Virus record (IMG/VR): IMGVR_UViG_3300017917_000723
Location: 1 to 64,000 of that record
Strand: one strand, 5' to 3'
Source of the DNA: a virus
DNA length: 64,000 nt
Shown in pieces: positions 14,884 through 36,802 of the stretch (its first letter is position 1; each line of letters starts with the position of its first letter). The notes below the pieces were generated by a model. That model was not told the origin of the DNA, did no database searches, and saw only the letters and a program-made list of their open reading frames with translations. Position numbers and translations under genes: made by a program.

Positions 14884-15079
14884 CTCTATACTTGAGTAAT
14901 GCTAGTTGTCTAGCTAAAAACAATCTCCATTTGATATGTTCTGGAAGATCGTCGTCCTGATCATCGTGTTCTAACCTTGGTCTACTGTAGCCTCGATGAA
15001 TCGAATCTTCAAATTCAAACTCAACTTCAGTGTCGTCAAGAGTTAGAACAATAGATCGATAAGGATTACTTCTTAGCAG
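14870..15079 (-). CDS. small hypothetical protein with uncertain start
   Basis: The reading frame ending at 14870 encodes a plausible protein from about residue SIVLTLDDTEVEFEF onward, with WRLFLARQLALLKYREIHG at its C-terminus. The upper part of the frame, inside the Ala/Pro-rich gene, is low-complexity His/Gln and is likely spurious. There is no ATG, GTG or TTG start near the plausible region. CTG at 15079 or ATT at 15052, possibly coupled to the upstream stop at 15066, are the best guesses. The stop codon sits in the terminator hairpin. Roughly 60-70 residues, no recognised family. Confidence 0.42.
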   Translation of the reverse strand: MLRSNPYRSIVLTLDDTEVEFEFEDSIHRGYSRPRLEHDDQDDDLPEHIKWRLFLARQLALLKYREIHG

Positions 15080-15272
15080 GCTCAGCTTTTTTGTCGCTGC
15101 TTTTGGTGGCGTCAGCGGCCTTCTTTTCAGCCGGCTTGGCTGCAGATGCTGCTGGTGCTGCGGCTGCTGGTTTGGCTTCTTCTTTCTTAGCAGGTGCTGC
15201 TGGTGCTGCTGGTGCTTGTGCGAAAGCGGATACTGCAAATAAAGATACTACTAGAGCTAATACTGATTTCAT
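15066..15272 (-). CDS. small secreted Ala/Pro/Lys-rich protein
   Basis: 68-residue protein with a clear Sec signal peptide, MKSVLALVVSLFAVSAFA, cleaved before QAPAAP. The mature part of about 50 residues is almost only Ala, Pro, Lys, Glu and Ser, so it is probably unstructured. The start at 15272 is set by AGGAGA just upstream and by the signal peptide; an in-frame ATG 12 codons earlier is less likely. Such proteins are common in betaproteobacterial genomes, so it may be host-derived and act in the periplasm. It is isolated between two terminators. Confidence 0.78.
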   Translation of the reverse strand: MKSVLALVVSLFAVSAFAQAPAAPAAPAKKEEAKPAAAAPAASAAKPAEKKAADATKSSDKKAEPAKK

Positions 15273-15350
15273 GTGAAATCTCCTTTTAAGTATCGCAGAC
15301 AATATCATCTGCGTATATATACAACGCCTTAGGAATAGAATTAGTTGACA

Positions 15351-15395: not shown

Positions 15396-17273
15396 TTAAA
15401 TTCTTGCTAGTTCTTTAATACGAGCCAATTCTGCTAATTCTGGGTTTTGGTCTGTGCTTTGTTGTGGTGCCATTCTTTCTACAAATTTACGAGCAACTTG
15501 TTCTGCCTGTTCGCCAAACTTTTTGCCTACCATTGTTACCACACCCTCTGGGCCTTTAGGGAAAGTGTTAGATTCTTTGTCATAAAAGCTCATAATGAAC
15601 TCAGCTAATGACTTAGTATCCATACTTTCACCACTTTCGCCTCTCATTTTTCTTAGTGTATCTTTATCGCTAATGTTTCTTTCTTTTTCTTTTTCTAGAT
15701 CGTCGTGGCTAACTTTCCAGTCATCACCGCCTTTTGCCTTACGCATATACGCAGGAACATCGCTCTTCTTAGGACCGTCTGCAGATTCTTGAGGAACTGG
15801 TTCTTCTGCTGGTGCCGCTGCTGGTTCAGCAGCTACAGGTTCTTCTGCAGGTGCTTCGCCTGCTGCTGGTTCCTCTACAAAATCGCCAAAATCTAACTGC
15901 TCTAATGCTTCAGGAGCATTTAGTTCTAACCAATCTTTAACTAGACCTCGGCAGCAACTTTCTGGATCTTGTGCAGCCTGTTCTTTAATTCTCTTGTATA
16001 ATTCCGGATCTTCAATCAGTCCCTTTAGGCTCTCGATAGCATTAGTACCATCTACACCTGCAGGAAAATGTTGACCCACTAGTTCTTGTAATTTTTGTAT
16101 TGCTGCCTGTTGCTCTTCTGGATCTTCTGAAGTAACTGCAGAATCTTCACCTAAACCCATTACCCAGTTTTCAAACTTAGCAAAAGGATCAAATGTGTCT
16201 TCTTCTACATCAACGTCTTCGTTCTGCATTTCTTCTTGTGTCATTGCGACTATGTCGTCATAGCCTATCGTGTTTCCCTCTTTCATTAGTCTATATAAGA
16301 CCGGAAATACGCTTGCGATATCTTCTTTGAATGAACGAACTGTAAATTTTTCTTTAAAATCTTCTACAACTTCTTGTGGAACTTCTTCTTGGCCTTGTGC
16401 TTGGAAGTTTTCTATATATGCCTCATAATGGCTTTGTTTGCTCAGTGCCTTGATTTGTTCACGTAGGCTGTTCAAATATGATGTTGAACGCTCTACTACA
16501 GAGTTAGTTTCGGAATTCATTAGGTCGTTACGAACAACATAATTACCAAAGCTCTTTAGTGCTGCGATTTCTTCGCTCATTCTAATAATGCTCTTACCAA
16601 CCTCGTCGTAAGGAACACCGCCGTTGGCCACGTGACGTTGCATAGCACGAGCACCTGCTAGGTGAATGAATGGATATTTAAATCTTTCTCCGTCTTGATT
16701 TTCTACAAATAATGCATTAATGTGACGTGTTCTAGCGCCTGGCTGTGTATCGTCCATGACTGCTTGATTGTGTTTAATAATAAGACGTGTGTCTAAAAGA
16801 TTTTGATAGCTCATTAATCGGCTACCATACATTGAGCTTTCTGCCATAATACTTTCTCCGACGGGCTTTTGAATAGTGTTCATTTGTTGTTTAGGTTGAG
16901 CATTTTGGCTCAAAAATTCATAATCTCGTTTATCTAGATTATCCTTAGCGATATCTCTAGTATCAAAACTTAGTAGTCTGCGTTTAGCAAACCCACGTAA
17001 TTCTTTCAAGAAACCATACCAATTAGTCTTTTGCCCATCATCCATACCTTCTGTGATTCCGTGGCTGAAATAAACTTTCATTGAATTAGGTTCAGCTAGG
17101 CTAATACTAACGTGCCCAATTGGTTGTTCGCCTTCCATATAATCAAAATCAAAGAAGCGAGCCTCTTCTGGATTAATGGTTATTTGGCCTGTTTCAGCAC
17201 CTAATTTTAGGCCTGTGAAGCGGCTGCGAATTTTATAGAATAAATCTGTAGCGATATTGTTTCTTGCGTCCAT
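15396..17273 (-). CDS. large hypothetical protein downstream of gp17
   Basis: 625-residue soluble protein of unknown function, with no signal peptide. The N-terminal 130 residues form a compact domain (VYFSHGITEGMDDGQKTNWY, FAKRRLLSFDTRD). A helical middle follows, then an Ala/Glu/Pro linker near 465-505 and a helical C-terminus. An ATG at 17288 overlaps the gp17 stop, but ATG at 17273 is preferred because GATAAATA stands exactly 5 nt before it. It sits in the late head/packaging operon, so a virion or assembly role is likely but unproven. Confidence 0.82.
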   Translation of the reverse strand: MDARNNIATDLFYKIRSRFTGLKLGAETGQITINPEEARFFDFDYMEGEQPIGHVSISLAEPNSMKVYFSHGITEGMDDGQKTNWYGFLKELRGFAKRRLLSFDTRDIAKDNLDKRDYEFLSQNAQPKQQMNTIQKPVGESIMAESSMYGSRLMSYQNLLDTRLIIKHNQAVMDDTQPGARTRHINALFVENQDGERFKYPFIHLAGARAMQRHVANGGVPYDEVGKSIIRMSEEIAALKSFGNYVVRNDLMNSETNSVVERSTSYLNSLREQIKALSKQSHYEAYIENFQAQGQEEVPQEVVEDFKEKFTVRSFKEDIASVFPVLYRLMKEGNTIGYDDIVAMTQEEMQNEDVDVEEDTFDPFAKFENWVMGLGEDSAVTSEDPEEQQAAIQKLQELVGQHFPAGVDGTNAIESLKGLIEDPELYKRIKEQAAQDPESCCRGLVKDWLELNAPEALEQLDFGDFVEEPAAGEAPAEEPVAAEPAAAPAEEPVPQESADGPKKSDVPAYMRKAKGGDDWKVSHDDLEKEKERNISDKDTLRKMRGESGESMDTKSLAEFIMSFYDKESNTFPKGPEGVVTMVGKKFGEQAEQVARKFVERMAPQQSTDQNPELAELARIKELARI

Positions 17274-17278
17274 AAGTG

Positions 17279-17286
17279 TATTTATC
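17279..17286 (-). promoter_or_regulatory. late promoter GATAAATA, 5 nt from ATG
   Basis: Lies at the very end of gp17 and 5 nt before the ATG at 17273. It gives the long downstream gene its own late start and supports that start codon. Confidence 0.62.
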
Positions 17287-18871
17287 ATAAACCCATGCTG
17301 ACAAAGATCGGCATAGGCATTGATTCTTCCGTGATTTTTTCAGTCATTTTTTCGTAGACCTGCGGATCCCAGTCTGCTAGTACTTCTGCCATGCGTACTA
17401 TTAGCAGGGTAGAACTTACTAGATCGTCATGCTCTCCAGATTTAGCTTTAAAACCTAGTCCTGTAGCCACGAATGTTTTTAGCTCAGAGATAAGCGGTTT
17501 ACTGTGGATTTTCATCTTATTAGTTTCGACCATGTTCTTAAGTATAGAACATGCTGTTATCTTAGTGCGATGTGTTGTGTTAAATCCTTTGCGGAATTTA
17601 CGCACATGTCCTTTGCGTATAGGCTCTGATAAGAATAAACCTGGAAAGTTTTCCTCGCCTATATCGCTGATAACAATTAGAGCAGCTTCACCGATGTTAT
17701 TATTTTCTACAGAATAATATATCTGCGGAACTGCGCCTTTTTCTTCGCCGCGATCGTGAATATAACGAAGTATTTCTCGCATATGTTTAACCTGTTGCTG
17801 TACAGGTGTTTCGTTATGATGCCACTCTGCAACCTGCGTCATGCTAGGCATTTCATATACCTGTATAGCACCATAGTCTCCGCCCGTACCTAAACTAGGA
17901 TCAAGTGCAACTAGATATGTACATTTAGGATCGATATCTTTATACCAACGTGTTTGCCCCATAGTCATGTAAGGCTCTGATCCCTGCATTTCTACAAGTT
18001 TTACTGAATGTATCAGTGTTTCATCATAGATCAAGAATTCACATTCAAATTCTCGACGGAAACGTTCTTCACCAATCTTAGCTTTTTCTAATCTAGCCCA
18101 AGCATCATCTCGATCGGGGTGTTCGTTCCAGTGGGCAAAGAACGCAAAGAAACCGTTTTGTCCTAACTGTTGTTCGTTGCCAAACTCATCAAACTTTTTA
18201 TTTGCTTCTGTCCAGATCATAGCGAACTGATCTTCGTCGGAGTTCGGTGTTGATGTAATAATTGCTTTACCGCCTGTGGCTAGTGTTGGTGATAACGCAG
18301 TCCAGAACTCTTTGGCCTTTTCTGGCGGTTGCACGAACGCAAACTCGTCGCAGTATATTAGAGAAAGAGATTTACCACGACCGGTATTTTCTGTAGTTGT
18401 AGTTGCTTGTATACGACTTCCATTATCGTATTCGATAGTATTTCTGTTGTAGGAATAAACACCTGCACGAATAAAGTCTGGAAGGTTTTCATAGGCATAT
18501 CGATAACGATCCATGATGTCTCGAGCACCTTCGTATTTGTGTGCTGCAATTAATACCTGAACGTCTGGAACAAACATAGTATACCATAACAAATAAGCAA
18601 CTGCACATGTAGTTTTACCCATCTGTCGAGGTAACATAGCAATACACTGTTTGTTATTATGGTATGCATGGATTAGTCTTTCCTGGAATTCATAAGGTTC
18701 AAATGGAATCGATCCTCTTACCGGGTGTTGAATCTTAATAAAGTTTTTGGCAAAATACAAAGGACCATCTACAGGATCCATGCACCTTTCAAGGTGTTGG
18801 ACTTCTTCAAGAGTATACTTGATCTGGGCATGGGCCTTCTTAATTAAATTGCCGTCTAATGATTTTGACAT
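17285..18871 (-). CDS. 17: terminase large subunit gp17
   Basis: 528-residue packaging motor ATPase-nuclease (T4: 610 aa). Residues 81-87 PRQMGKT form Walker A, LIYCDEFAF near 171-179 is Walker B, and IITSTPN near 204-210 is the coupling motif. The nuclease domain starts with VALDPSLGTGGDYGA (Asp324); VENN (Glu389) and HDDLVSS (Asp482/483) complete the metal triad. Its ATG follows AGTAAATA by 5 nt with no Shine-Dalgarno sequence, just after a terminator, so it should be transcribed independently of the upstream genes. Confidence 0.96.
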   Translation of the reverse strand: MSKSLDGNLIKKAHAQIKYTLEEVQHLERCMDPVDGPLYFAKNFIKIQHPVRGSIPFEPYEFQERLIHAYHNNKQCIAMLPRQMGKTTCAVAYLLWYTMFVPDVQVLIAAHKYEGARDIMDRYRYAYENLPDFIRAGVYSYNRNTIEYDNGSRIQATTTTENTGRGKSLSLIYCDEFAFVQPPEKAKEFWTALSPTLATGGKAIITSTPNSDEDQFAMIWTEANKKFDEFGNEQQLGQNGFFAFFAHWNEHPDRDDAWARLEKAKIGEERFRREFECEFLIYDETLIHSVKLVEMQGSEPYMTMGQTRWYKDIDPKCTYLVALDPSLGTGGDYGAIQVYEMPSMTQVAEWHHNETPVQQQVKHMREILRYIHDRGEEKGAVPQIYYSVENNNIGEAALIVISDIGEENFPGLFLSEPIRKGHVRKFRKGFNTTHRTKITACSILKNMVETNKMKIHSKPLISELKTFVATGLGFKAKSGEHDDLVSSTLLIVRMAEVLADWDPQVYEKMTEKITEESMPMPIFVSMGL

Positions 18872-18928: not shown

Positions 18929-19378
18929 TTAAGCAAATGTTAAACCTGTTAACGCTACTTCAGTAATAGTAATGTCGTTTTCGGCAACACCTAACGCTGC
19001 ACCGATAGCATCTTCTAGATTTTCGTAAGAACCGTCAAACGATGTAGAAGCACCGTACCCGTTACCAGAATCTGCTTTATTAGTATTGATTAGGGCAACA
19101 AACTGGTTAGCACCACTTGCTGTTGGAATTCCTACATAATAAATTTCAGCTAAAGACTGTAGACCTCTAACAGCTTTGGACATATTACTGTTTGCTGCTG
19201 TAGGTGTTGTTGTAAAATTAATTGTTGCAGAAACAACTTTGATAGCCTGTAACTTTGGTGTACCAAAACTTGTGTAAGGACCAACGCCGCTGGCGCCGTC
19301 TCCTAAAATTTTTCTAGCATTAGCGTCAATATTACCTGTTAAACCGCCGCCGATTGCTACTCCGTATAAGTCTGCCAT
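18929..19378 (-). CDS. putative virion protein, 149 aa
   Basis: 149-residue protein, Gly/Ala/Thr-rich and low in charge, with beta-rich stretches (LQAIKVVSATINFTTTP, ITITEVALTGLTFA). It has no signal peptide or membrane segment. It follows the 244-aa acidic protein with a shared base (stop/start) and has GGAG before the ATG. A strong terminator follows. Composition and place suggest a structural or decoration protein; I do not recognise a family. Confidence 0.75.
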   Translation of the reverse strand: MADLYGVAIGGGLTGNIDANARKILGDGASGVGPYTSFGTPKLQAIKVVSATINFTTTPTAANSNMSKAVRGLQSLAEIYYVGIPTASGANQFVALINTNKADSGNGYGASTSFDGSYENLEDAIGAALGVAENDITITEVALTGLTFA

Positions 19379-20112
19379 TATTTTGCTCCTTTAGCTTCTG
19401 CTAATTTCTTTTGTAGTTCTGAACGGATCCAAGAACGTAGTTCTTCGCCTTCCATAGCCATCGGATTATCTCCTTGACGATAGCTATGCTTGTGCATAGT
19501 CTTAGGTTTATTTAGATCGTTGCCATCTGGAATAGCATCCTTAGGTTCACCAACTTCAGGCTCTGAATCTCCTACAGAATTGCCGAATGCTTCTTCTTCC
19601 TTATCTTTCTTTTCCATGTCATGGTCGTCCATGTCATGATCGCCATCGTTATCTAGATCTCCCTGTGCCTTAGAAACTTCATCGTCTCCGCCAGGCTTGT
19701 TCATGATATCAATTTCTGGCTCTTCTCCGCCTTCATCAGAGTCTAAGTCTGGTAGCATTTTTAAAGGACCCGAATCTAGATTTCCTAATTTCATCGGAGA
19801 CATCGCGCCTGGTTTATCCATTGGCTCAATTTCGATACTAGGAGCCATGCTAGGTGCAGGCTGATCCATGTCTTTGTTCACTGCTTTGATTAGATTCATT
19901 AGCTCTTCGATGTTATCTAATCCTTGTGCATTTAGATTAATGCTCATACTTGGAGGCGGAGCATCCTGTTCTTTCGGCATAGACATACCCATTGGGCTAG
20001 GAGGCATTTCTCCACACTCGTCTGTTGCCACTGGTTCTTCAACAACCGCGGCTGCTGCCGGTGCTGGCTGATCCAGTTCATTCATCTTTGCTAATAGTTG
20101 TTGAAAGTCCAT
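19378..20112 (-). CDS. acidic, Pro/Met-rich hypothetical protein in head operon
   Basis: 244-residue protein, mostly disordered. It has a short N-terminal helix (DFQQLLAKMNELDQ), then Pro/Met-rich and acidic stretches including the near-repeat GDHDMDDHDMEKKDKEEEAFG near residues 155-175. A basic helical C-terminus follows (LRSWIRSELQKKLAEAKGAK). Its charge pattern recalls prohead-core or scaffold proteins, but homology is not evident. It lies between the capsid-targeted 192-aa protein and the 149-aa protein. Confidence 0.75.
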   Translation of the reverse strand: MDFQQLLAKMNELDQPAPAAAAVVEEPVATDECGEMPPSPMGMSMPKEQDAPPPSMSINLNAQGLDNIEELMNLIKAVNKDMDQPAPSMAPSIEIEPMDKPGAMSPMKLGNLDSGPLKMLPDLDSDEGGEEPEIDIMNKPGGDDEVSKAQGDLDNDGDHDMDDHDMEKKDKEEEAFGNSVGDSEPEVGEPKDAIPDGNDLNKPKTMHKHSYRQGDNPMAMEGEELRSWIRSELQKKLAEAKGAK

Positions 20113-20114
20113 TA

Positions 20115-20693
20115 TTATTTTCCTTTGCGTGGATCTGGATTGTCTGTCTTACTCATAGGGGACACAGATCCAGCTTTATCTGCTTTTTGTTTACTAATTT
20201 TGTATTCTGCATTGAAACCATCTTTAGTACGTTGCTTAGATGCTTTCTGTAAATCTTTTAAGAAACCTTTGTTGAAATCGTCACCGAAGTAATCTTTGTG
20301 TTTGACCTTGTCGTTATAGGGCTCTTCTAATACTGCCTTACCGCTAGGTTCCATATCGGCTGTATTGTGATCTAATTCTTCTGCATCTCCGCCGTTTCTA
20401 ACACGGAAATGTGATTCAGGAACAAACCACTTGATATGTTCTTGTAATTCAGGTGCTGTAATTGGATACTCGCAAACAACTTCAAATGTTGTGACAGGCA
20501 AGTAAGTTAATTCTGGAAAATCCAGAGGAACAGATTGAATAGGAGTCGAACTCTTTTCAACTATAGTAGGATTAGCCTTGCCAATACAGTCTTTTAGATC
20601 TTCGATAAAATTCTTAGGTACGTCGCCTGCGATTTTTAATCTAAAAGGGTATGACTTTGTGTTTTCGGCCAGATATTCTTTAAAGGTCTTCAT
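20115..20693 (-). CDS. putative internal head protein with capsid-targeting N-terminus
   Basis: 192-residue protein starting MKTFKEYLAEN. This matches, position by position, the T4 internal-protein capsid-targeting sequence MKTYQEFIAE, which ends in a gp21 prohead-protease site (L/I-x-E). Cleavage after Glu10 is therefore predicted. The rest has an alpha/beta centre (TYLPVTTFEVVCEYPI) and a basic C-terminus. The ATG lies 5 nt after CATAAATA with no Shine-Dalgarno sequence. A protein carried in the head and injected with DNA is the likely meaning; its activity is unknown. Confidence 0.76.
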   Translation of the reverse strand: MKTFKEYLAENTKSYPFRLKIAGDVPKNFIEDLKDCIGKANPTIVEKSSTPIQSVPLDFPELTYLPVTTFEVVCEYPITAPELQEHIKWFVPESHFRVRNGGDAEELDHNTADMEPSGKAVLEEPYNDKVKHKDYFGDDFNKGFLKDLQKASKQRTKDGFNAEYKISKQKADKAGSVSPMSKTDNPDPRKGK

Positions 20694-20698
20694 AGTAA

Positions 20699-20706
20699 TA
20701 TTTATG
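20699..20706 (-). promoter_or_regulatory. late promoter CATAAATA, 5 nt from ATG
   Basis: Overlaps the last codons of gp16 and lies 5 nt before the ATG at 20693. Confidence 0.65.
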
Positions 20707-21184
20707 CTTTTCCGCTTAATTTTTTCAGTAGCTCGTTGCGGTCAGTAATCACATAACCCTGACCGTTAATCACATTATTTGGATCGTTGCCTGCATCATT
20801 ATCAATTTTTAACTTCTTTAGCTGTAGATCCACTGACTTTAACTTCTTTTCGATCTTATTGGTTTTGGCAGTAATAGCATTGCCCATCATAGAACTGGCC
20901 ACTTCAAAAATGCGGCTAGCATAGCGTACTTCTACGTTCATGCCTAGATCCATTAGATCGTCATAGGCCTGCTCTGCTTTTTTGGCTAGATTATCTAGTT
21001 CCTGCTCGTCTAGATTTTCTAGTTCCTGTATTTTGGGCAAAGTTTGAACTATTTTTTCTACTGCCTGATATTGCTCGTCAAGGCTGGTTACTTCTTCGTG
21101 TGTAGGAGCAGGCGGTTTTTCAATCTCAACTTTTTTAGGTTGTGATGATTCTAGATTAAAAAGTTCTTCAAGTTTTTTGGTCAT
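20702..21184 (-). CDS. 16: terminase small subunit gp16
   Basis: 160-residue helical protein (T4: 164 aa). The central signature YDDLMDLGMNVEVRYASRIFEVASSMM...AITAKTNKIEKKLKSVDLQLKKLK is characteristic of gp16. It forms rings that recognise DNA and stimulate gp17. Unlike in T4 it is separated from gp17 by three genes. The start follows gp4 by 7 nt without a Shine-Dalgarno sequence; a degenerate GATAAGTA is nearby. Confidence 0.9.
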   Translation of the reverse strand: MTKKLEELFNLESSQPKKVEIEKPPAPTHEEVTSLDEQYQAVEKIVQTLPKIQELENLDEQELDNLAKKAEQAYDDLMDLGMNVEVRYASRIFEVASSMMGNAITAKTNKIEKKLKSVDLQLKKLKIDNDAGNDPNNVINGQGYVITDRNELLKKLSGKA

Positions 21185-21191
21185 ACTTTAC

Positions 21192-21632
21192 TTATCTACG
21201 TTTTCCACCATTATGGAAAATATCATTTTCGCTAACTACCCTAAAACGTATACCCTGTTGCTTACACCATTTTCCAGCAGCTTCCCATTTGGCCATATTT
21301 TTAACATATTGTTCTTGGTTATATAAACTTTTGCCAACTTTTTCTCTTAGTGTATGGTTGCTAGGCTTTACTTCTACAACTTCTGCATGTTTGGTTCCAT
21401 TTTTATCAACATACACGATAAAAAAATCAGGCACATATATTGTGCTTTTGCCTGTCAGGGGATCTCTATATGGAATTTGAATACTTTCGCTAGCCCAATT
21501 CTGAACCCCTGGGTGTTCGTCGAGCATTCGCATAAAAACAAATTCCCATGAACTACGGGCTAAAGGAGTTTTCTTCCCAACATATTTGTCAGGGTTTTTC
21601 ATTTCAAATTTACCCTGTGCAAACTTAGCCAT
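21192..21632 (-). CDS. 4: head completion protein gp4 (TnsA-like nuclease fold)
   Basis: 146-residue protein (T4 gp4: 150 aa) with the same layout: an N-terminal GKFEMKNPDKYVG, then RSSWEFVFMRMLDEHPGVQNWASESIQIPY (T4: RSNWEKFFFEWLDKNPEIIAWGSE...IPY), then VPDFFIV and VVEVKP, the D...E-x-K nuclease-like core. The C-terminus is KWCKQQGIRFRVVSENDI. It acts at a late step of head filling or head-neck joining. It overlaps the upstream gene by one base. Confidence 0.9.
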   Translation of the reverse strand: MAKFAQGKFEMKNPDKYVGKKTPLARSSWEFVFMRMLDEHPGVQNWASESIQIPYRDPLTGKSTIYVPDFFIVYVDKNGTKHAEVVEVKPSNHTLREKVGKSLYNQEQYVKNMAKWEAAGKWCKQQGIRFRVVSENDIFHNGGKRR

Positions 21633-21998: not shown

Positions 21999-23075
21999 TT
22001 ATCGACCTGTTAGATTTCTCTGGGTAGCAGATGTTGTAGGTTCAGTAGAAGCACTCTTAGGAAATACACTGCCAACAACACCACCTACGGTTGAAACTGC
22101 TGTGGCAATATTTCCAGGGTTGCTTAAAATATTAACAGCTTCATACTTTAGTTGAGCGGTTGATAATGATTTTGCATTTTTATATGTGTTAACGGCTTTT
22201 ATAGCTGTTCCTAAAAATCCACCAAAACTATCAAATGCTTGACCTGATCCAATATCTCCGAACACCTGTTCTAGGCCGTCGAGTACGCCACCTTCGCCTG
22301 TAAGAGTAGCAACACCACCACCGGCAACAGATAGTGGACTAGGAGTTGAATCGTAATGTAAATTAGCAAATCCTTTTGGATTATTATAGCTAACATTTCC
22401 TGCAGAATATTTTACAGCTTCGTATTCCAATGTCATTTGGCTATCGTTAAATTCCGAAGCAGAGTAATCCATTGTTCCGTGAGTCCAAGACTTGATTCTA
22501 GGATTAACTAATGTGTAGCCGATAAATCTTCTACGACTCATTGTATAAATTGTAACGGAATCAAAGAAGGGTGCTCCTACATCATTGTCTAAACCGTATC
22601 TAAAATTATCTTTAGGAGTCTTTGTTGGTCTTAATTGACTAGCATCATATGCAGCATTTGGTTGCAATCTATCTGCGATATAGTATCCGTAATAGATCGC
22701 CCACATAGCACTAATTATACCTGCACTATCATCGTGCATTGTGATAGAGACTGGCTCATAATTAATTTGTTTGTAAACTATTTTCTTTCTATTGTATTGA
22801 TTTTTTACAACACTATCAAAGTTAAATTTAGGTAAGTCTGCTGACTTTACTAGTAGGCCAACTTCTTCTTGATGTTTGTTAGTAAAAGACGGAGCTCTAA
22901 TGGCACGTTTATTGATTTCAAATCGAACATAAAAAAGAAATTTAGTTCGAGGCGCCAACCTCATAGTATCGTCTACAAATAGACGTGTGGCATGTCGCCA
23001 GTTGGATTGTTGTCCCTTAGGGTTTAAAACACCTTCAGCAACACCGTTAAGAAATCTTGTGAAATAATTGGCCAT
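21999..23075 (-). CDS. tail-tube paralogue, gp54-like baseplate tube initiator
   Basis: 358-residue protein. Residues 75-120 (LPKFNFDSVVKNQYNRKK, YEPVSITMHDDSAG) align with the tube protein gp19 in this genome (RPKVSFEEMTLDVYNSKV, LENVTLTLRDDASG), so it shares the tube fold. A Gly/Ala-rich C-terminal region of about 110 residues follows. Size and likeness suggest the gp54 class, which nucleates the tail tube on the baseplate; gp48 or another tube adaptor is the alternative. Its ATG is 5 nt after CATAAATA and it follows a terminator. Confidence 0.68.
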   Translation of the reverse strand: MANYFTRFLNGVAEGVLNPKGQQSNWRHATRLFVDDTMRLAPRTKFLFYVRFEINKRAIRAPSFTNKHQEEVGLLVKSADLPKFNFDSVVKNQYNRKKIVYKQINYEPVSITMHDDSAGIISAMWAIYYGYYIADRLQPNAAYDASQLRPTKTPKDNFRYGLDNDVGAPFFDSVTIYTMSRRRFIGYTLVNPRIKSWTHGTMDYSASEFNDSQMTLEYEAVKYSAGNVSYNNPKGFANLHYDSTPSPLSVAGGGVATLTGEGGVLDGLEQVFGDIGSGQAFDSFGGFLGTAIKAVNTYKNAKSLSTAQLKYEAVNILSNPGNIATAVSTVGGVVGSVFPKSASTEPTTSATQRNLTGR

Positions 23076-23136: not shown

Positions 23137-23787
23137 TTAACCTTGGGCTGTAGAAGCACCTGTTGTAGCTGCACCTAAAGTACGGCCAACTGCTGCGCCA
23201 ATACCACCAACTGGACTTACTGCTGCTGCACCTGCTGCAAACTGCGATAAGTTATCGTAGGCGATTGTAAGAGCAACAGTCATGTGCTCGTTGGTGCTGT
23301 AGTTAGCATCACCGTAGTCTACGTTCTGTAAGAAGCAACCGTATAGTTCAAATGTTTCTAGTGTTTCTGGAGTTAGTGTACCGTTACCACCGTCTAGTAC
23401 TTCGATACGTGTTGTGAACTTGTAATCAATACCTGAACGAGCAGATGCCTGCTCCATGAAGTCGTATTGCTTCTGGATTTGTTGTCCAACTAACTTTTGA
23501 ACTTGTCCGCTAGCATCGTCACGTAATGTTAATGTTACGTTTTCTAACGAATACTTACCAGCAAGTTTAACCTTAGAGTTATAAACGTCTAGTGTCATTT
23601 CTTCGAATGAAACTTTTGGTCTAGTAACTTCTTGAACTTGCTTTGTTAGTTCAGTTGCAGCGGCAACTCCAAATCCTAACAGGGTAACACGGAAGCGATA
23701 TTTCAACTTCGGCATTAGAAGCACCTGAGTGCTTCCTGCCGCATTGGTTGTTGGAATACCGATGTTGTTAAGTGATGTAATTGCCAT
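23137..23787 (-). CDS. 19: tail tube protein gp19
   Basis: 216-residue tube subunit (T4: 163 aa). It shows the tube pattern: LMPKLKYRFRVTLLGFG, then a long strand pair RPKVSFEEMTLDVYNSKVKL and LENVTLTLRDDASGQVQKLV, then FELYGCFLQNVDYGDANYSTNEHMTVALTIAYDN. The extra C-terminal Gly/Ala tail of about 35 residues is absent in T4. It follows the sheath gene with a 2-nt gap, has AGGAG upstream of the ATG, and is closed by a terminator, so sheath and tube share one late transcript. Confidence 0.92.
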   Translation of the reverse strand: MAITSLNNIGIPTTNAAGSTQVLLMPKLKYRFRVTLLGFGVAAATELTKQVQEVTRPKVSFEEMTLDVYNSKVKLAGKYSLENVTLTLRDDASGQVQKLVGQQIQKQYDFMEQASARSGIDYKFTTRIEVLDGGNGTLTPETLETFELYGCFLQNVDYGDANYSTNEHMTVALTIAYDNLSQFAAGAAAVSPVGGIGAAVGRTLGAATTGASTAQG

Positions 23788-23789
23788 TT

Positions 23790-26700
23790 TTAAATTTCTC
23801 CTGTGTTCTTGACACGCAATGGAATGTAAATGAATTCAACTGCCTTCACTGGTTCAATCGCAATGTCTACATATAGTTCGTTACGATCGATACGTGATGG
23901 AGTGTTGTTGCTTTCATCACAAACAACAGCATAGTCGTAAATAGCTCTTAGACCTACTAACTCTAACAACAAGCTCTCAACTGCTTGTTTGATCTCATCA
24001 CGTGTGATCTTATCGTTAGGTTCGAAGATGTATGGACGAGCTAGTTTGTTCAACTGACTGCGTAGATATACAACTAAACGTGCTACGTTAATTCTGTCTA
24101 GTGCAGAAGCATTTCTTGCACGAGTCTTTTGACCGTATGCAACTAAACCAACACCGTTGAAGAATGGAATTGGGTTAATCTTTAGGTCATATAGTGTATC
24201 ACGCTGTCCTTCATTTAGTGCTACAGTTTGGAATTCACCTGTCATAGCATCGATATAACCAACTGCTGTAGCGTTAGTAATACCACCACGACGTGTACCT
24301 GCTGGAGCAAACCATGGATAACTTACGTTGTCGCTTAGAGCGATTGTCTTTAGCATCATGTGCGATGCTGGAACAACTGCACCTGCGCCGCTTAGGTCTG
24401 TTGTGAAACCGTTTGGATAATAAGTAGCTAGGTATTCATCATATGTAACGATACCGTCGTCACCGTTGTCTGTTACTAGGTTAGCGTTAGTACCCCATGT
24501 TGTTAACGAAGTAGCATCGCTCTTTAATCTTAATGGAGTATCACCGACAACGAACGCTGTGATACCGCGATCGATGTTTAGGTTAACTAGATTGCTTAAT
24601 AATTCTGGATAACCAGGAGCAGCAATTAAGTTAAAGTTTCTACGCTCTTCGTCACGAATTTCTTGGCTAGTATCAACAACACTCTTCATTGCCTGTACAA
24701 CAACTTTACGCTGTGCCTTGCGACCAAAGCTACCTGAACCGTCTTCGTTGTTACCAGAAGCAGTAACCCAACGATCTGTCCAGTATGTTTCCATGCTTAG
24801 ACCAGCTCCGCTGAGGAATGCTGTACCTGCTAGTGTTGCTGTACTTGTACGTGGGTTGTCACCAGTAGTGTCAATATAGCTGTTAGCATAACGCTTAACG
24901 TTACCGCCGGAACGACGTAGGTTCCATAGCAACATACCTTTTGGATATAGTGCCGGATCTGGAGCATCTGGGTCTAGGAAGTTATTTGTAACTAGGTCTT
25001 CGATTGTTGATGCTTCTTTTGATGAACCTGCTGTTGCCCAACGAGCGTCAGCAAATAGAACACCTTCTTCTGTTGTTTGATCTGTCTTATCGACTAATTC
25101 CCAACGTTGTGATTGATCAGCAATGTCTGTTAAGTTGCTGTTATATCTATAGATAGTTGGATAGTTTTCCATGTCAGCTGTGCTGATCCATAAGTCGCCA
25201 GTTGTTGTTACACCAGAAACATAAGGATTGCTTGCAGCTACGATTGGTAGATAACCTGTTCTTAGATTTGTTGTTGGGGCTTCATAATATGGAGCAGTTG
25301 AGTGTCTGTAACCTACCCATGTAGCACCGTTATGAACCATGATATCAACTTCGCTGAAGTTTGGATTATACCATAATTGTCCGTCTGTTGGCTCGTTTAG
25401 AGGAGCATCTCCGCTGGCTGCAAATCTTGGATTTGAAGCACATAGTGGTTTCCAACCAGATGCTAGATATTCTTCACTTGCGCCTGCTGATAGGTCTTCT
25501 TGGCCTACAACAACTGAACCAGTTGATAGGTTGTAGAAGTTTTCTGTACCTTCTCTTGTTTTTAAATTGTATGCTGCAAATAGCTTAGAAACAGGAGTAC
25601 CAGTACCGTCTGTAAATCTCATGTCTCCGCCAGCTGTATGAGTAATTACTAATCTGCTTGATGTTGCAGACACTGTAATTACAGAAGCTTCGATATTGGT
25701 AAAACCTGCAGAGTTTATAGCTGCGGCAATGATGTCAGCATCACCCGAATTACCTTGCAACGGATTAGCAGGTGTATTTGTTGATGCACAGCTAATTGTT
25801 TTTGCAGTATCTAAACTTTCTTGTCCTACTAAAGTTTCTTTTAATGTAAATGTATAGTTTCCTGCAGAAAAAGTTCCTGATTTAATAATATTCGATGTAA
25901 CACTAGTACCGGTTCCAGCAGCTACATTTCTGCGCCATACACGGAATTCTGCTGTGTTTGTTGTCGAATCAAAACCAGAATTTTCAGATGCATTGCTCTG
26001 TACAAATAATGCATCAGCTGCAACTTTTGCACCACCACCGCTACGGTCTAAAGAATAAAGTGCAGCATTTGTTGAAGCGTAAATTGGTGCTTCGTTGCTG
26101 ACCCATGATTCTGTAGCAGAACTCCATTGCTTTGCTCTCCAACGAGCACCGTTGTTTGGTTCTGTAGACTTAATCCAAACAGAACCTGTTGGATATCCTG
26201 CTGTTAATGGATTGTTTCCAGTAGCATTGTCTGTGATCTTAAATGCTGGCACAGAAGTATGTGGGCTGATTTGTAATTTAGGTGCTGCATATCTTCCAAC
26301 TGTTACACCTAATGTTGCCCAGCTAGCTGTACCGTCTTCTAGTTGAACTGTACCGTCTGCTGCTGAATCTAAACCAGAGGATGTTCCGTCACAGTAGACA
26401 TATAATTTGTTGTTAATAACATCTGCACATACTCCAGGTATGCTTGCACCGTTAATTGCTGTTTCAGCTGCGGCTACTCCGCCGTTAACGTTAATCTGTT
26501 GATTGTTAATGAACAATGTGCCGTTAACTGTGCTTGTAGAAGCAGTTCCAGCGTATACTGGCCAGCTAGCTTTCCATTCTGGGCTACCGACTAGTACCCA
26601 GTCACCTGAGCTAACTGCTGTTCCGCCACCTGCTACGCCACCATTACCTGCAGATTTAAAATAAATTCTTGCTAGGTCTTCGTTTGTACCGAATGATGTA

Positions 26701-27311
26701 TCGCCTTCAACAGTTTGGAATACTACAGCATAGTCACCGATCATGCCCACAGATCCCTTTGGAGCATTGTTTTCAATCTTAGCTGGATAGTCGCTGTCGG
26801 TTAAAACCACAGGAACTTTATTGCTAAATTTCTGTCCACCTGTAGTAGTAGGAGCAGCACCGTTCCATTCTTGTACACCCCAGGTTGTTGCCTGTGTGTC
26901 AATCCACCATTGTCCGTTTGTTGGGTTCGCTCCCGGGGCATCTACTTGTGCTTCTAGTTCGTCTAGGTTTACATCTGCACGAACAATAAATGCCGCGTTA
27001 CTTACACCTAATAAACTGTATGCTGCTAACAAACCGTATTCGTTACGCTCTGATCCGTGTACAGGAGTAGAACTCGCTGTCTTTTCAAAGAACGGAATAC
27101 CGAATGTTTCTGTTAAATCTCTTTGGCTGGTCATTTTAAATGCCTTACCAGCATTGGCTTTTGTTGTACCGGCGGCAACGCCTGTGCCTGCGCCGTTTGT
27201 CTTATCTTGGCCTGTTGCTACAACGATAAGAGGTGTTGTCCCAGGCTCAGCTGGTGTATAAAAACTCTCGTCGATTACCGTAACTTGTACGCCGGGTGAT
27301 GTTAGTGCCAT
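23790..27311 (-). CDS. 18: contractile tail sheath gp18 with large insertion
   Basis: 1173-residue sheath protein, far longer than T4 gp18 (659 aa). The N-terminus (SPGVQVTVIDES) and C-terminus (GVGLVAYGQKTRARNASALDRINVARLVVYLR through YIPLRVKNTG) are typical. The middle holds an added region of roughly 500 residues with recurring Trp-rich blocks: GQWWIDTQ, GSVWIKSTE, GQLWYNPN, GDLWISTA. These are likely surface domains decorating the tail. AGGAG precedes the ATG, and GCTAAATA lies 33 nt upstream. Confidence 0.93.
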   Translation of the reverse strand: MALTSPGVQVTVIDESFYTPAEPGTTPLIVVATGQDKTNGAGTGVAAGTTKANAGKAFKMTSQRDLTETFGIPFFEKTASSTPVHGSERNEYGLLAAYSLLGVSNAAFIVRADVNLDELEAQVDAPGANPTNGQWWIDTQATTWGVQEWNGAAPTTTGGQKFSNKVPVVLTDSDYPAKIENNAPKGSVGMIGDYAVVFQTVEGDTSFGTNEDLARIYFKSAGNGGVAGGGTAVSSGDWVLVGSPEWKASWPVYAGTASTSTVNGTLFINNQQINVNGGVAAAETAINGASIPGVCADVINNKLYVYCDGTSSGLDSAADGTVQLEDGTASWATLGVTVGRYAAPKLQISPHTSVPAFKITDNATGNNPLTAGYPTGSVWIKSTEPNNGARWRAKQWSSATESWVSNEAPIYASTNAALYSLDRSGGGAKVAADALFVQSNASENSGFDSTTNTAEFRVWRRNVAAGTGTSVTSNIIKSGTFSAGNYTFTLKETLVGQESLDTAKTISCASTNTPANPLQGNSGDADIIAAAINSAGFTNIEASVITVSATSSRLVITHTAGGDMRFTDGTGTPVSKLFAAYNLKTREGTENFYNLSTGSVVVGQEDLSAGASEEYLASGWKPLCASNPRFAASGDAPLNEPTDGQLWYNPNFSEVDIMVHNGATWVGYRHSTAPYYEAPTTNLRTGYLPIVAASNPYVSGVTTTGDLWISTADMENYPTIYRYNSNLTDIADQSQRWELVDKTDQTTEEGVLFADARWATAGSSKEASTIEDLVTNNFLDPDAPDPALYPKGMLLWNLRRSGGNVKRYANSYIDTTGDNPRTSTATLAGTAFLSGAGLSMETYWTDRWVTASGNNEDGSGSFGRKAQRKVVVQAMKSVVDTSQEIRDEERRNFNLIAAPGYPELLSNLVNLNIDRGITAFVVGDTPLRLKSDATSLTTWGTNANLVTDNGDDGIVTYDEYLATYYPNGFTTDLSGAGAVVPASHMMLKTIALSDNVSYPWFAPAGTRRGGITNATAVGYIDAMTGEFQTVALNEGQRDTLYDLKINPIPFFNGVGLVAYGQKTRARNASALDRINVARLVVYLRSQLNKLARPYIFEPNDKITRDEIKQAVESLLLELVGLRAIYDYAVVCDESNNTPSRIDRNELYVDIAIEPVKAVEFIYIPLRVKNTGEI

Positions 27312-32509: not shown

Positions 32510-32753
32510 TCAAAGATTTCAAGAAGATGTTAAACGATATACCGAGGCTATTAATGATATGCCCGACAGTCAGGGAAAAATCGAAGCTCAAAAACTTCTT
32601 AATGATCTTATATACGAAGTAAAAAACATGGACAATATGTTTATGGATATGGTGTATTCAAAACAGCTACCTTCTCTCGGAGCAGAAATTAGAGATCGGA
32701 TAACTGATATCAGAAAAAAGTTAGATAAAAAAATAGCAAGACAGTCTGTATGA
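32496..32753 (+). CDS. small helical hypothetical protein
   Basis: 85-residue, almost entirely helical and charged protein (RFQEDVKRYTEAINDM, AEIRDRITDIRKKLDKKI), likely a coiled coil. It overlaps the Nudix-like gene by 14 nt and the halogenase start by ATGA, so all three are coupled. No recognised family. Confidence 0.72.
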   Translation: MLQANQRFQEDVKRYTEAINDMPDSQGKIEAQKLLNDLIYEVKNMDNMFMDMVYSKQLPSLGAEIRDRITDIRKKLDKKIARQSV

Positions 32754-34219
32754 TAAGAAGAATTAAAAATTTAGTAATCTTAGGAGGTGGCACATCTGCA
32801 TGGTTATCTGCTGCCTATATGAGAAGACATTTTCCAGATCTAAGAATTTCGGTGGTCGATAAAGAAGTTAGTACTCCTGTCGGTGTCGGTGAAGGAACTC
32901 TATTAAATTTCAAAACGTTCATGGAAAACTGCGGGTTTCAGGTAGACGATTGGTTTCCTAAAATTGATGCCACATACAAAGCAGGTATTTTATTTCCGAA
33001 TTGGAAAAAGAAAGGATTAACAGTTTGGCATCCCTTTAAGATGAATCCTTTAATGTATGAAAATGTTAACCTGTTTGATCTATGGAGCTCTAATCAAGAC
33101 TTAGACTTCGCGAACTATGGCACAACAATGTATGATATTACTGTTAATAGAAATAAAATAGATCTCTCGGAGAATTACGGATTTCATGTTGATTGTTTAA
33201 AATTAGTAAATTATATAAAAGAAAAATTAGGAAATTCTGTAGAACTAATAAATTCCGAAATGGTTGAAGTTATTAGAGATGAAGACCAGCATATCACTGA
33301 ACTGATATTAAAAAATAATCGGATAATTAAAGGAGATTTATTTTTTGATTGCACAGGATTTAAATCTTTGTTAAACGAATCTCCAGCGAGAGTAGATTTA
33401 AAAAATAGACTTTTCTGCGATACAGCTATTGCAGGACATGTTCCTTACGACGATCGCAAAACAGAACTAAGACCTTATGTTATTTCAGAAGCGGTTGAAT
33501 GTGGTTGGATATGGAATATCCCAACAAGGAAACGTATTGGGTCAGGATTAGTTTTTAATCGTAGCATAACAGATATTGAAGAAGCTAAGGATATATTTGT
33601 AAAGCACTGGCAGAATAGAATTTCCAAAGAAAATTTAAAAGTTATAGACTGGACTCCTTTTTATAACGAAAACTTTTGGCATGAGAATGTGATATCGATT
33701 GGCCTAAGTGCAGGATTTATAGAACCTTTAGAAAGCACAGGCATCGCCCTTATTATGGAGGGAATATATCAAGCTGCTCAACGCATCAGAGGATATAAAT
33801 TCGAAGACCTAGATATCGAAGTGTATAACAAAATCATGAAATGCTTCTTTGAAGAAAGTATAGATTTTGTAGGTATGCACTATTCTGTAACTGAACGGGA
33901 AGAACCGTTTTGGAAATTTGTTAAAGAGAATTCTAAGATTTCTCAGAGACAGCAATTCTATATAGATCAATTAAAAGATCCATCTCAAGCAGTTCCATAT
34001 CAAGGTACAAATACAAACTTCTTCTGCGGAGAAAATTGGTCAATTTGGTTGATACAATTAGGGTGGAATCCGGCTCCTAGAAATGTGTTAGTTCCCGAAG
34101 AGCAGGCCAGAGAAATACTAATTAGCTACCACGATAGAAATGAAAAATTTAGACATGTATGGTCTAGAGATCATGTTGGCGAAATAGAAAGATTAGAAAA
34201 TTTTTATAATTTGGAATAA
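32750..34219 (+). CDS. flavin-dependent tryptophan-type halogenase
   Basis: 489-residue FADH2-dependent halogenase. GGGTSAW at residues 12-18 is the FAD site, GVGEGTLLNF at 45-54 fits the family, Lys77 (TYKAGI) matches the catalytic lysine of PrnA, WIWNIP at 253-258 is the WxWxIP halogenase hallmark, and Glu328 in EPLESTG matches the catalytic glutamate. All key residues are present, so it should be active. The natural substrate may be tryptophan, a Trp in a protein, or another ring. It starts a tailoring-enzyme block inside a late operon. Confidence 0.93.
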   Translation: MIRRIKNLVILGGGTSAWLSAAYMRRHFPDLRISVVDKEVSTPVGVGEGTLLNFKTFMENCGFQVDDWFPKIDATYKAGILFPNWKKKGLTVWHPFKMNPLMYENVNLFDLWSSNQDLDFANYGTTMYDITVNRNKIDLSENYGFHVDCLKLVNYIKEKLGNSVELINSEMVEVIRDEDQHITELILKNNRIIKGDLFFDCTGFKSLLNESPARVDLKNRLFCDTAIAGHVPYDDRKTELRPYVISEAVECGWIWNIPTRKRIGSGLVFNRSITDIEEAKDIFVKHWQNRISKENLKVIDWTPFYNENFWHENVISIGLSAGFIEPLESTGIALIMEGIYQAAQRIRGYKFEDLDIEVYNKIMKCFFEESIDFVGMHYSVTEREEPFWKFVKENSKISQRQQFYIDQLKDPSQAVPYQGTNTNFFCGENWSIWLIQLGWNPAPRNVLVPEEQAREILISYHDRNEKFRHVWSRDHVGEIERLENFYNLE

Positions 34220-34222
34220 TAT

Positions 34223-34978
34223 ATGCAATTAAAATCTTCTTACTATTATTTTCAGAGTGCAATTCCTAAAGAAATTTGCCGAAGGATAATAGACCTAGGA
34301 TTAGAAAAACTCAACGACTACAAAAAAACCGGAAAACGCATTGATGCTGTAACATTCAATGACAAACAAAAGGATGCTTTACCGGATAGCGTTCCTGCTG
34401 CGGACTTAACCAAAGAAGAATTAAAAAAGAAAAACGTTGATTTGTTTTACGAAAGAGACAGTAAGGTTGCTTGGTTGAATGAAAAATGGTTGTATGATAT
34501 GATACATCCGTATGTTCATGAAGCCAACGCGAGAGCAGGGTGGAATTGGCAATGGGATTACTCTGAGCAATTTCAATTCACGATCTATGAACCGGGCGGA
34601 TTTTACAGTTGGCATTGCGATGGCCCTAGCGACCATAATGGAATCTTTAAAAGATATATTTACGGAGTGACTCCTAAACCTTTAAAATCCGACGGTAGGA
34701 TACCAGAAGGATATGCTGCCGACGATAATATGATTGGAAAGATTAGAAAACTAAGTTTAACAATTAATTTAAACGAACCCGGAGAATACGAAGGTGGAGA
34801 ATTAAAATTTGATCTTGGAGATCACAATGACGGAAAGAAGATTGTAGTCTGTGAAGAAATAAAACCTCAAGGCAGCATAGTAGTATTTCCTAGTTTCTTA
34901 CCTCACTGTGTTGCGCCGGTAACAAAAGGAACTAGGTATAGTTTAGTACTCTGGACATTAGGAAATCCGTATAAATGA
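34223..34978 (+). CDS. 2-oxoglutarate/Fe(II) oxygenase (PKHD type)
   Basis: 251-residue dioxygenase. Metal ligands are His131 and Asp133 (SWHCDG) and His228 (LPHCVAPV). Arg238 (GTRYSL) is placed to bind 2-oxoglutarate. LSLTINLN...YEGGEL is the standard jelly-roll strand pair. Hydroxylation or other C-H oxidation of a peptide or small molecule is expected. It lies 3 nt after the halogenase, and ATGA-coupled to the next oxygenase. Confidence 0.9.
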   Translation: MQLKSSYYYFQSAIPKEICRRIIDLGLEKLNDYKKTGKRIDAVTFNDKQKDALPDSVPAADLTKEELKKKNVDLFYERDSKVAWLNEKWLYDMIHPYVHEANARAGWNWQWDYSEQFQFTIYEPGGFYSWHCDGPSDHNGIFKRYIYGVTPKPLKSDGRIPEGYAADDNMIGKIRKLSLTINLNEPGEYEGGELKFDLGDHNDGKKIVVCEEIKPQGSIVVFPSFLPHCVAPVTKGTRYSLVLWTLGNPYK

Positions 34979-35631
34979 ACAATATTTCAAATATTCAAAA
35001 CTTTTTCAACAAAAACGGTTTTGTTGTTATCAAAAATTTTATAGATAGAAATATCGTTAATATTTTTTATCAATATACTATATTAAAAGTACAGAGTGTT
35101 GATTATAAAAAATTAAATTATCCTGATCATTATAACAAAGACTGGGACGGAAAGTTTGGAGACCCTCAAATTCCAAACTCATATAACTGTTATGGGGATA
35201 CTCTAATGGATAGTCTTTTGATTTCGTCTTTAAACCAGATGGAACAATACACTGGCATGTCCTTAGTACCTACATATAGTTATTGGAGATTCTATCAGCT
35301 AGGCGATGTTCTTAAAAAGCATCGAGATAGAAATAGTTGTGAAATTTCTGCTACATTATGCTTAGGTTATAATGCCGAAAACATGAAAGATTTAAATTAT
35401 TCTTGGCCGATCTGTGTTGAAAGCACTTTAGATCCTTCTAAAGATTTTACAGAAATAAATTTAGAACCCGGCGACATGATCATTTACAAAGGCTGTGAAT
35501 TGTTGCATTGGAGAGATGCGTATCAGGGATTAAATCACGCACAGGTATTTTTGCATTATAATAGAAAAGATAATCCCAATAATAATATTTTAGACGGCAG
35601 AAGCATATTGAGTATTCCTCATGGATTTTAA
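34975..35631 (+). CDS. 2-oxoglutarate/Fe(II) oxygenase-like protein
   Basis: 218-residue protein with FFNKNGFVVIKNFID at the N-terminus, as in many 2OG enzymes. The ligand pair is His116-x-Asp118 (KKHRDR), with a distal His178 (ELLHWRDAY) after LEPGDMIIYKG. An Arg at 197 may bind 2OG. It differs clearly from the neighbouring oxygenases, so the block was not built by simple tandem duplication. Coupled by ATGA upstream and an 11-nt overlap downstream. Confidence 0.8.
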   Translation: MNNISNIQNFFNKNGFVVIKNFIDRNIVNIFYQYTILKVQSVDYKKLNYPDHYNKDWDGKFGDPQIPNSYNCYGDTLMDSLLISSLNQMEQYTGMSLVPTYSYWRFYQLGDVLKKHRDRNSCEISATLCLGYNAENMKDLNYSWPICVESTLDPSKDFTEINLEPGDMIIYKGCELLHWRDAYQGLNHAQVFLHYNRKDNPNNNILDGRSILSIPHGF

Positions 35632-36244
35632 TAATTTTTCTATTCAGACGATTTTTCCTACTGCTATTTTAACAAATAACATCAGTAGAAAATTTACGGA
35701 AGAAGAATACAATTACATTAATAATTGTCTAGAGACTCGAATCTCCAACGTAGGAAATACAACTTCTTTAGAAAGTTATGTGTTAGACAATCCTGCACTA
35801 GCTGATCTAAAGAAATCAATTGAAGCCTGTATAGATTATTATAAAAAAGAAATCCTATGTCCTAAAGATGATATAGAAATTTATATCACACAATCATGGT
35901 TAAATGTTTCGGAAAAAGGACAACATCATCATATACACAATCACACAAATAGTTTTCTTTCCGGAGTTTTTTACATCCAGACAGATGATAAAAATAATAA
36001 AATAACATTTCACCGAGACAGATACGATATGATAAAGTTAATTCCAAAAGAATTCAACGAATATAATTCAAAATCTTGGTGGCTACCTGCAGAGGTTGGA
36101 AATATAATTATATTTCCGTCTCACTTACAACATGATGTTTCTATTAACGAAAGCAACGAACCTAGGATTAGTTTATCCTTTAATACATTTATAAGAGGAA
36201 CTGTTGGAGAGGCTGAGTCCCTAACTAAGATAGTACTGCGATGA
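35621..36244 (+). CDS. putative 2-oxoglutarate/Fe(II) oxygenase, TIGR02466-like
   Basis: 207-residue protein with IQTIFPTAI at the start, SWLNVSEKGQHHHIHNHTNSFLSGVFYI in the middle (His cluster 102-108) and FPSHLQHDV (His171) plus RISLSF (Arg182) at the end, the pattern of the TIGR02466 family of putative 2OG oxygenases. It is a third distinct oxygenase subfamily in this operon. Substrate unknown. Confidence 0.82.
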   Translation: MDFNNFSIQTIFPTAILTNNISRKFTEEEYNYINNCLETRISNVGNTTSLESYVLDNPALADLKKSIEACIDYYKKEILCPKDDIEIYITQSWLNVSEKGQHHHIHNHTNSFLSGVFYIQTDDKNNKITFHRDRYDMIKLIPKEFNEYNSKSWWLPAEVGNIIIFPSHLQHDVSINESNEPRISLSFNTFIRGTVGEAESLTKIVLR

Positions 36245-36801
36245 ATTTAAATTTAGATAATTATATAAAAGTTTATAATAGACTTTCTCTGTCTTTTTGT
36301 GATAACATAGTTGAAGAATTAGAAAAGTCATCTTGGGAAAAACATAGTTTCTACGTTAACTCAGAAGGAAACTATTATTCAACCGATACAGATTTTAAAG
36401 TTACATGGAATCCCCTTAAAGTCCAAGAAATTTTACATCAAGCTGTATGGGACAGTTTGTATCAATATGTTGTACAGGATATAAATTTTTCATGGTTTCA
36501 CGGATGGCAACAGTTTACTGGGGTTAGGTTCAATCGTTATGAGACTAATACAGAAATGCATAATCATTGCGATCACATACACGATATTTTTGACGGTGAG
36601 AATAAAGGAGTTCCAGTATTAAGTGTCCTCGGAATACTAAATGATGATTTCGAAGGCGGTGATTTAATATTTTTTGAAGATAAAAAAATTGAAACAAAGA
36701 AAGGAGATATAATTGTATTTCCTTCAAACTTTTTATTTCCTCATAAAGTTTCTCCAGTAACTAAAAATGTAAGGTATTCATTTGTTTCATGGGCATGGTA
36801 A
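36241..36801 (+). CDS. 2-oxoglutarate/Fe(II) oxygenase (PKHD type)
   Basis: 186-residue dioxygenase. Ligands are His109-x-Asp111 (NHCDHIH) and His168 (FPHKVSPV), with Arg178 for 2OG. LNDDFEGGDLIFFEDK is the core. It is closer to the 34223 enzyme than to the other two. ATGA overlap with the upstream gene; the carbamoyltransferase starts 1 nt after its stop. Confidence 0.87.
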   Translation: MNLNLDNYIKVYNRLSLSFCDNIVEELEKSSWEKHSFYVNSEGNYYSTDTDFKVTWNPLKVQEILHQAVWDSLYQYVVQDINFSWFHGWQQFTGVRFNRYETNTEMHNHCDHIHDIFDGENKGVPVLSVLGILNDDFEGGDLIFFEDKKIETKKGDIIVFPSNFLFPHKVSPVTKNVRYSFVSWAW

Positions 36802-36802
36802 T

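Follow-up and report, generated by a model that had tools for sequence, protein, structure and literature searches.

Why does a viral gene beside the head-completion and packaging genes begin with ten residues (MKTFKEYLAE) that resemble the leader of the T4 internal proteins, and is its product injected anti-defence cargo or a part of the head itself? We addressed this question in a stretch of 64,000 nucleotides (the window), which is nearly the whole of a virus record of 65,250 bases.

A T4-like leader within a structural gene cluster

The target gene and its leader are on the minus strand (Table 1); an initial annotation that drew attention to the leader gave no strand. The gene lies within a T4-like structural cluster in which all genes run in one direction, in the order sheath-sized protein, tail tube, tube-like protein, 121-aa protein, gp4-like protein, 160-aa protein, target, 244-aa protein, 149-aa protein and large terminase. 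Relatives come from contigs of up to 281 kb and from complete jumbo phages of 469-490 kb (Sinorhizobium phage Phosso and Agrobacterium phage Atu_ph07). No capsid gene was identified in the window's own record and the prohead protease is absent from its 65 kb, both being known from relatives.

Table 1. Coordinates of the target gene, its parts and its neighbors in the window.
Feature	Position	Strand	Remarks
Target ORF, 192 aa, ATG start	20115..20693	minus	homolog of CBB_210 / PA5oct EST35_0202 / 121Q gp557
Putative capsid-targeting leader MKTFKEYLAE, residues 1-10	20664..20693	minus	determinants F4, Y7 (targeting), L8, E10 (processing)
Predicted prohead-protease scissile bond Glu10/Asn11	20661..20666	minus	YLxE↓S/N motif in relatives' major capsid protein and protease; cleavage predicted
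Ferredoxin-like beta-alpha-beta-beta-alpha-beta domain, residues 14-104	20382..20654	minus	AlphaFold2 model; bS6/ACT/PII-like hits
C-terminal motif around KHKDYFGDDFNKGFLKDL, residues 131-150	20244..20303	minus	mean column identity 0.90; helix predicted from 138
160-aa upstream neighbor, weak small-terminase profile match	20702..21184	minus	PHROG 445 E 2e-5; PHROG 16202 E 2e-15
gp4-like head completion protein (TnsA-like)	21192..21632	minus	PHROG 218 E 7.5e-39; PF08722 E 2.5e-22
244-aa downstream neighbor, no assigned function	19378..20112	minus	fastest-evolving among compared cluster genes
Large terminase (gp17-like)	17285..18871	minus	PHROG 36964 E 4e-120
Tail sheath-sized protein	23790..27311	same direction as target	
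Tail tube	23137..23787	same direction as target	
Second tube-like protein	21999..23075	same direction as target	

Just 5' of the target's ATG, CATAAATA is similar to the T4 late promoter box; we rejected this candidate because it overlaps the stop codon of the preceding gene and lies too near the ATG. Elsewhere in the window, an 80-aa ORF (15066-15308, minus) between the SSB gene and a 630-aa virion structural protein has a signal-peptide-like start and an Ala/Lys/Pro-rich tail. The structural region also contains a metabolic cassette on the plus strand (32750-38320), with a tryptophan-halogenase-like gene, three 2OG-Fe(II)-oxygenase-like genes, a match to a family annotated as ferrochelatase, and a Nod-type carbamoyltransferase.

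The leader is conserved at the positions that matter in T4

The leader of T4 IPIII reads MKTYQEFIAE (sequence and 10-residue leader peptide annotation from GenBank X04567). Six of the ten residues are identical in the target and the other four pairs (F/Y, K/Q, Y/F and L/I) score positively in BLOSUM62, which bears out the earlier claim of a match at every position. Against the T4 leader the target start scores 38 (BLOSUM62), and the runner-up among the 392 ATG starts in the window scores 19. By the same score, the ortholog in a 281-kb relative ranks first among 2097 starts.

Pooling 116 distinct relatives gave the pattern MK[T]-[FLY]-x-[EDQ]-Y-[LI]-[TASVIN]-E-[SNA]. Residue 4 is F, L or Y (in 108, 4 and 4 relatives, respectively), Tyr7 and Glu10 are invariant, Leu or Ile is at residue 8 in 116/116, and position 9 is free. 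The L-x-E ending noted in the initial annotation, with Asn11 as the would-be new N-terminus, is thus upheld, [LI]xE being present at residues 8-10 in all 116 members of the window's clade; it is missing in several RaK2-like homologs. Lys12 and Lys13 are likewise conserved. The leader codons vary synonymously across relatives, so the constraint acts on the protein. In an alignment of 56 sequences (the family set filtered at 90% identity), mean identity is 0.89 for columns 2-13 but 0.65 for residues 14-105. Our first search for relatives had the leader among its seeds; when it was repeated with leader-free queries it still recovered relatives bearing the same leader, which is kept in relatives down to about 40% identity.

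Mutational work by Black on T4 IPIII, as summarized in a review, assigns targeting mainly to residues 4 and 7 and processing to residues 8 and 10; Asp at position 10 blocks processing and still allows targeting (PMC9026906). The residues that are important in T4 (4, 7, 8 and 10) are the ones conserved in the target family, whereas residue 9 is not. When the family's N-terminal 40 residues were searched against 50,697 phage records, the hits were a true homolog and, for the most part, T4-like internal head proteins of Klebsiella and E. coli phages, whose alignments start at residue 1 but whose individual E-values are no better than 0.7-9. Sequence comparison gives good support to a T4-type capsid-targeting leader on the target and to a prohead-protease site at its end.

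Each contig has one leader-bearing gene. A search for the same leader on other proteins had been suggested, and in the 281-kb relative it yielded a single second candidate (MKHLQEFVVE, in a 58-aa frame), which starts at an internal ATG and which we judged to be a chance likeness.

Candidate prohead-protease sites in relatives

The S77 prohead protease (PF03420) is encoded in 9 of the 12 relatives' records searched and in 10 of 10 jumbo-phage records, and relatives also encode a gp23-type capsid protein. The capsid protein has RKYL[AS]E↓SATAGATS (the arrow marks the predicted cut) at residue 41 in all eight relatives tested, a position that corresponds to FLTE65↓AE in T4 gp23; judged by this position, the putative maturation site of the major capsid protein reads KYLAE↓SATAGA. 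The protease itself has KYLAE or [KR]YIAE about 10 residues from its C-terminus in the six relatives read, again a site proposed from its position. In one relative, the YLAES of the capsid protein recurs in the S77 protease (90481-91113, minus), ten residues before the C-terminus (KYLAE↓SLKRII), as a candidate self-cleavage site. In the giant phage SPN3US, the S77-type protease cuts off the C-terminal end of its own chain and has a preference for Ser at P1' (PMC10052503).

The motif Y[LI][ASTV]E[SN] occurs four times in the 303 ORFs of the 281-kb relative (shuffle mean 0.86, maximum 4). Since shuffling can also reach four, the number by itself does not settle the matter; the remarkable point is which proteins have the motif, and where. 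It sits in the target leader, at Glu41 of the capsid protein, at residue 200 of the S77 protease (210 residues long) and in one large tail protein. T4 has a similar pairing between gp23 (FLTE65↓A) and IPIII (FIAE10↓A). From these motifs we infer that the target is probably clipped after Glu10 during maturation.

The 244-aa downstream neighbor has the LxE-type motif LQKKLAEAKGAK at its C-terminal end, and the 630-aa virion structural protein (15396-17288, minus) has SIMAESSMYG about 145 residues in, possibly a further prohead-protease site.

The target belongs to a virion protein family of jumbo phages

With the Phosso homolog as TBLASTN query, 56 phage records proved to have the gene, and almost all of these are jumbo phages. 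The window's order of gp4, one gene (160 aa) and target is the RaK2-like order, kept in the RaK2-like records that we opened (CBB, GAP32, 121Q, RaK2, Vibrio 2.275.O and others). In PA5oct there are two genes between gp4 and the target homolog, and Phosso and Atu_ph07 have an insertion of ribonucleotide reductase genes. In RaK2-like jumbo phages too, whose hosts differ widely, the target gene has one copy and lies between gp4 and the gene for the large terminase. We found no relatives in bacterial genome contigs; searches of viral contigs gave no match with the PA5oct query and only its own record with the Atu_ph07 query.

Two homologs have been detected in virions. CBB_210 was found in CBB particles by mass spectrometry (13 unique peptides, 60.5% coverage; PMC5259590), and the record of PA5oct EST35_0202 carries an ESI-MS/MS note. 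Both results concern whole particles, and are also compatible with a location in the neck or tail. The initial description of the target as an unknown protein holds for Pfam, where we found no family for it, but not for PHROGs, in which PHROG 14802 ('virion structural protein') is matched by 55 of the 56 family members in the alignment at E-values no higher than 0.1 (best 1.4e-10). The sole exception is the window's own copy, which joins the family by way of full-length relatives in that set that share as much as 78% identity with it. Of the 56 relatives, 45 touch PHROG 2667 ('internal head protein'). The target evolves faster than its conserved neighbors (median identity 50%, versus 82-83% for gp4 and terminase), so some host-facing role is possible. 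In the literature searched, we met no report of a T4-type tag on the RaK2-like family; this counts as weak evidence that the finding is new.

Among the RaK2-like homologs, hydrophobic residues are kept at positions 4, 7 and mostly 8, and the leader has diverged (for example, MNKLQKILTE). Position 10 is Glu in CBB, GAP32, 121Q, Vibrio 2.275.O and Atu_ph07, Asp in RaK2, BF, SNUABM_47 and Hallingskeid, Ser in 7t3 and Phosso, and Ala in XaC1 and PA5oct. Because distant homologs have Asp, Ser or Ala at this position, cleavage cannot be general in the family. The proteins found in virions include one with Glu10 (CBB) and one without it (PA5oct), which fits packaging that is independent of the cut. 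If the rule from the T4 mutant applies, homologs lacking Glu10 are predicted to be targeted yet unclipped. The family therefore offers a natural experiment, in which Glu10 homologs are expected to be clipped and the Asp, Ser or Ala ones to be packaged intact, like the T4 Asp10 mutant.

Fold and charge of the mature protein

An AlphaFold2 model of moderate confidence, built from the 56 sequences (mean pLDDT 62, pTM 0.39), has a helix at residues 4-10, a ferredoxin-like domain at 14-100 (pLDDT about 60-80), and a C-terminal helix at residues 138-157. No PDB sequence was matched in a profile search with the target. The fold matches in the PDB (bS6, ACT and PII; Z up to 8.4) are uninformative about function because they are generic for ferredoxin-like folds. 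Near the C-terminus, the motif around KHKDYFGDDFNKGFLKDL is conserved as strongly as the leader.

A basic mature protein is a trait of the T4 internal proteins, and the target lacks it. Its mature form has a pI of 6.1 (family median 6.2; distant homologs 4.4-5.4), that is, neutral to acidic, as against 9.65 for T4 IPIII and a range of 9.3-9.7 for T4 IPIII, IPII and T-even IP7.

A core head component or injected cargo

The proposal that the protein is packed in the head and trimmed after Glu10 gains good comparative support from the T4 determinants, the YLxE↓S sites and the presence of homologs in virions, with the cut itself predicted. We consider it probable that the target is a conserved core component of the head, which a T4-type tag brings in and which is probably clipped in maturation. 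The gene would encode a head protein conserved in RaK2-like jumbo phages of the T4 superfamily, whose first ten residues form a short helix that serves for capsid targeting in the T4 manner. The leader would be docked on the scaffold core of the prohead by Phe4 and Tyr7, and a cut by the S77 prohead protease after Leu8-x-Glu10 would then free a 182-residue mature protein (the ferredoxin-like domain and the conserved C-terminal helix), presumably inside the head. An anti-restriction inhibitor is a less likely role for the mature protein than that of a structural or ejected component of the head (at the portal vertex, in the inner body or in the core), because the gene is a single-copy core gene of the head-completion/terminase cluster.

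The initial annotation raised the possibility of an anti-defence effector, packed in the head like a T4 internal protein and injected to block a host defence enzyme. Several observations lean this way: the leader is like that of the T4 internal proteins, one of which, IPI, blocks the GmrSD endonuclease (PMC3012670); the search with the N-terminal residues led to T4-like internal head proteins; most relatives touch PHROG 2667; and the target evolves faster than gp4 or terminase. We nevertheless regard an effector as unlikely. T4 internal proteins are dispensable and not highly conserved (PMC9026906), unlike this single-copy gene, which is syntenic among RaK2-like phages of very different hosts; the mature protein is far from their basic pI; and no known inhibitor family was matched by the target in Pfam or PHROGs. 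It is also rather improbable that the N-terminal helix is an ordinary, uncleaved helix by which the protein docks to a partner in the neck, portal or tail, and that it resembles the T4 leader and protease site by convergence. The hydrophobic residues at 4, 7 and 8 do persist in homologs without Glu10, the neighbors are tail tube, sheath, gp4 and terminase genes, and Lys12 and Lys13 are conserved too, but docking would not need an invariant Glu10 in the window's clade, Leu or Ile at 8 and a free position 9, and YLxE↓S recurs at the putative sites of the capsid protein and the protease. A chance likeness of a short lysine-rich N-terminus is very hard to credit: although only ten residues are compared and LxE is a very short motif, the target ranks first by a wide margin (38 versus 19), and conservation of the leader in distant relatives largely refutes this reading.

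If the target is indeed a core head component, the T4-type tag is also part of core head assembly, beyond variable anti-defence cargo, and the gene that bears it is conserved and single-copy in widespread uncultured jumbo phages. Being short, the leader would also be a candidate tag with which reporter proteins might be loaded into phage heads of very large size.

Comparison with known systems

The closest parallels to the leader are T4 IPIII and IPII and T-even IP7 (PHROG 2667), which have a ten-residue leader with the same determinants and an L/I-x-E end; the Ip7 leader of RB15 reads MKTFKEFINE. In IP7, as in the target, the leader is followed by an apparent beta-alpha start. A Foldseek comparison with Ip7 of MX01 gave a weak match (E = 3e-3), and HHalign comparison to IP7 with leader-trimmed profiles gave E = 0.014 and a probability of 3%, a score reached by 2 of 200 shuffles; we treat common ancestry of the mature domains as a lead and not a result. 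The T4 and T-even internal proteins differ from the target in being basic and in lying in variable loci near e, denV or 57B, as a variable set with several genes per genome, whereas the target is a syntenic gene of a conserved head/packaging cluster. It is conceivable, though we think it doubtful, that the T4 internal-protein system and a core jumbo-phage head protein share ancestry. A structural protein with leader and ferredoxin-like domain would have come first, T-even phages would have turned leader and domain (IP7 type) into a loader of variable injected effectors, and RaK2-like lineages would have kept the targeting tag and partly lost the cut.

The RaK2-like PHROG 14802 family (CBB_210, 121Q gp557, GAP32_204 and PA5oct EST35_0202) is homologous to the target from residue 1 through the ferredoxin-like domain, and resembles it in location after gp4, with virion proteins in CBB and PA5oct. 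It differs in its diverged leader and variable residue 10; judging from the sequences compared, a leader that is cleanly T4-like and in which Glu10 never varies is a trait of the window's clade and a few others. The head and ejection proteins of SPN3US and phiKZ also have propeptides, which a gp21-like protease removes by cutting behind x-x-Glu (PMC5694885, PMC10052503), but theirs are mostly more than 100 residues long, whereas the target's propeptide would be of T4 size, at ten residues.
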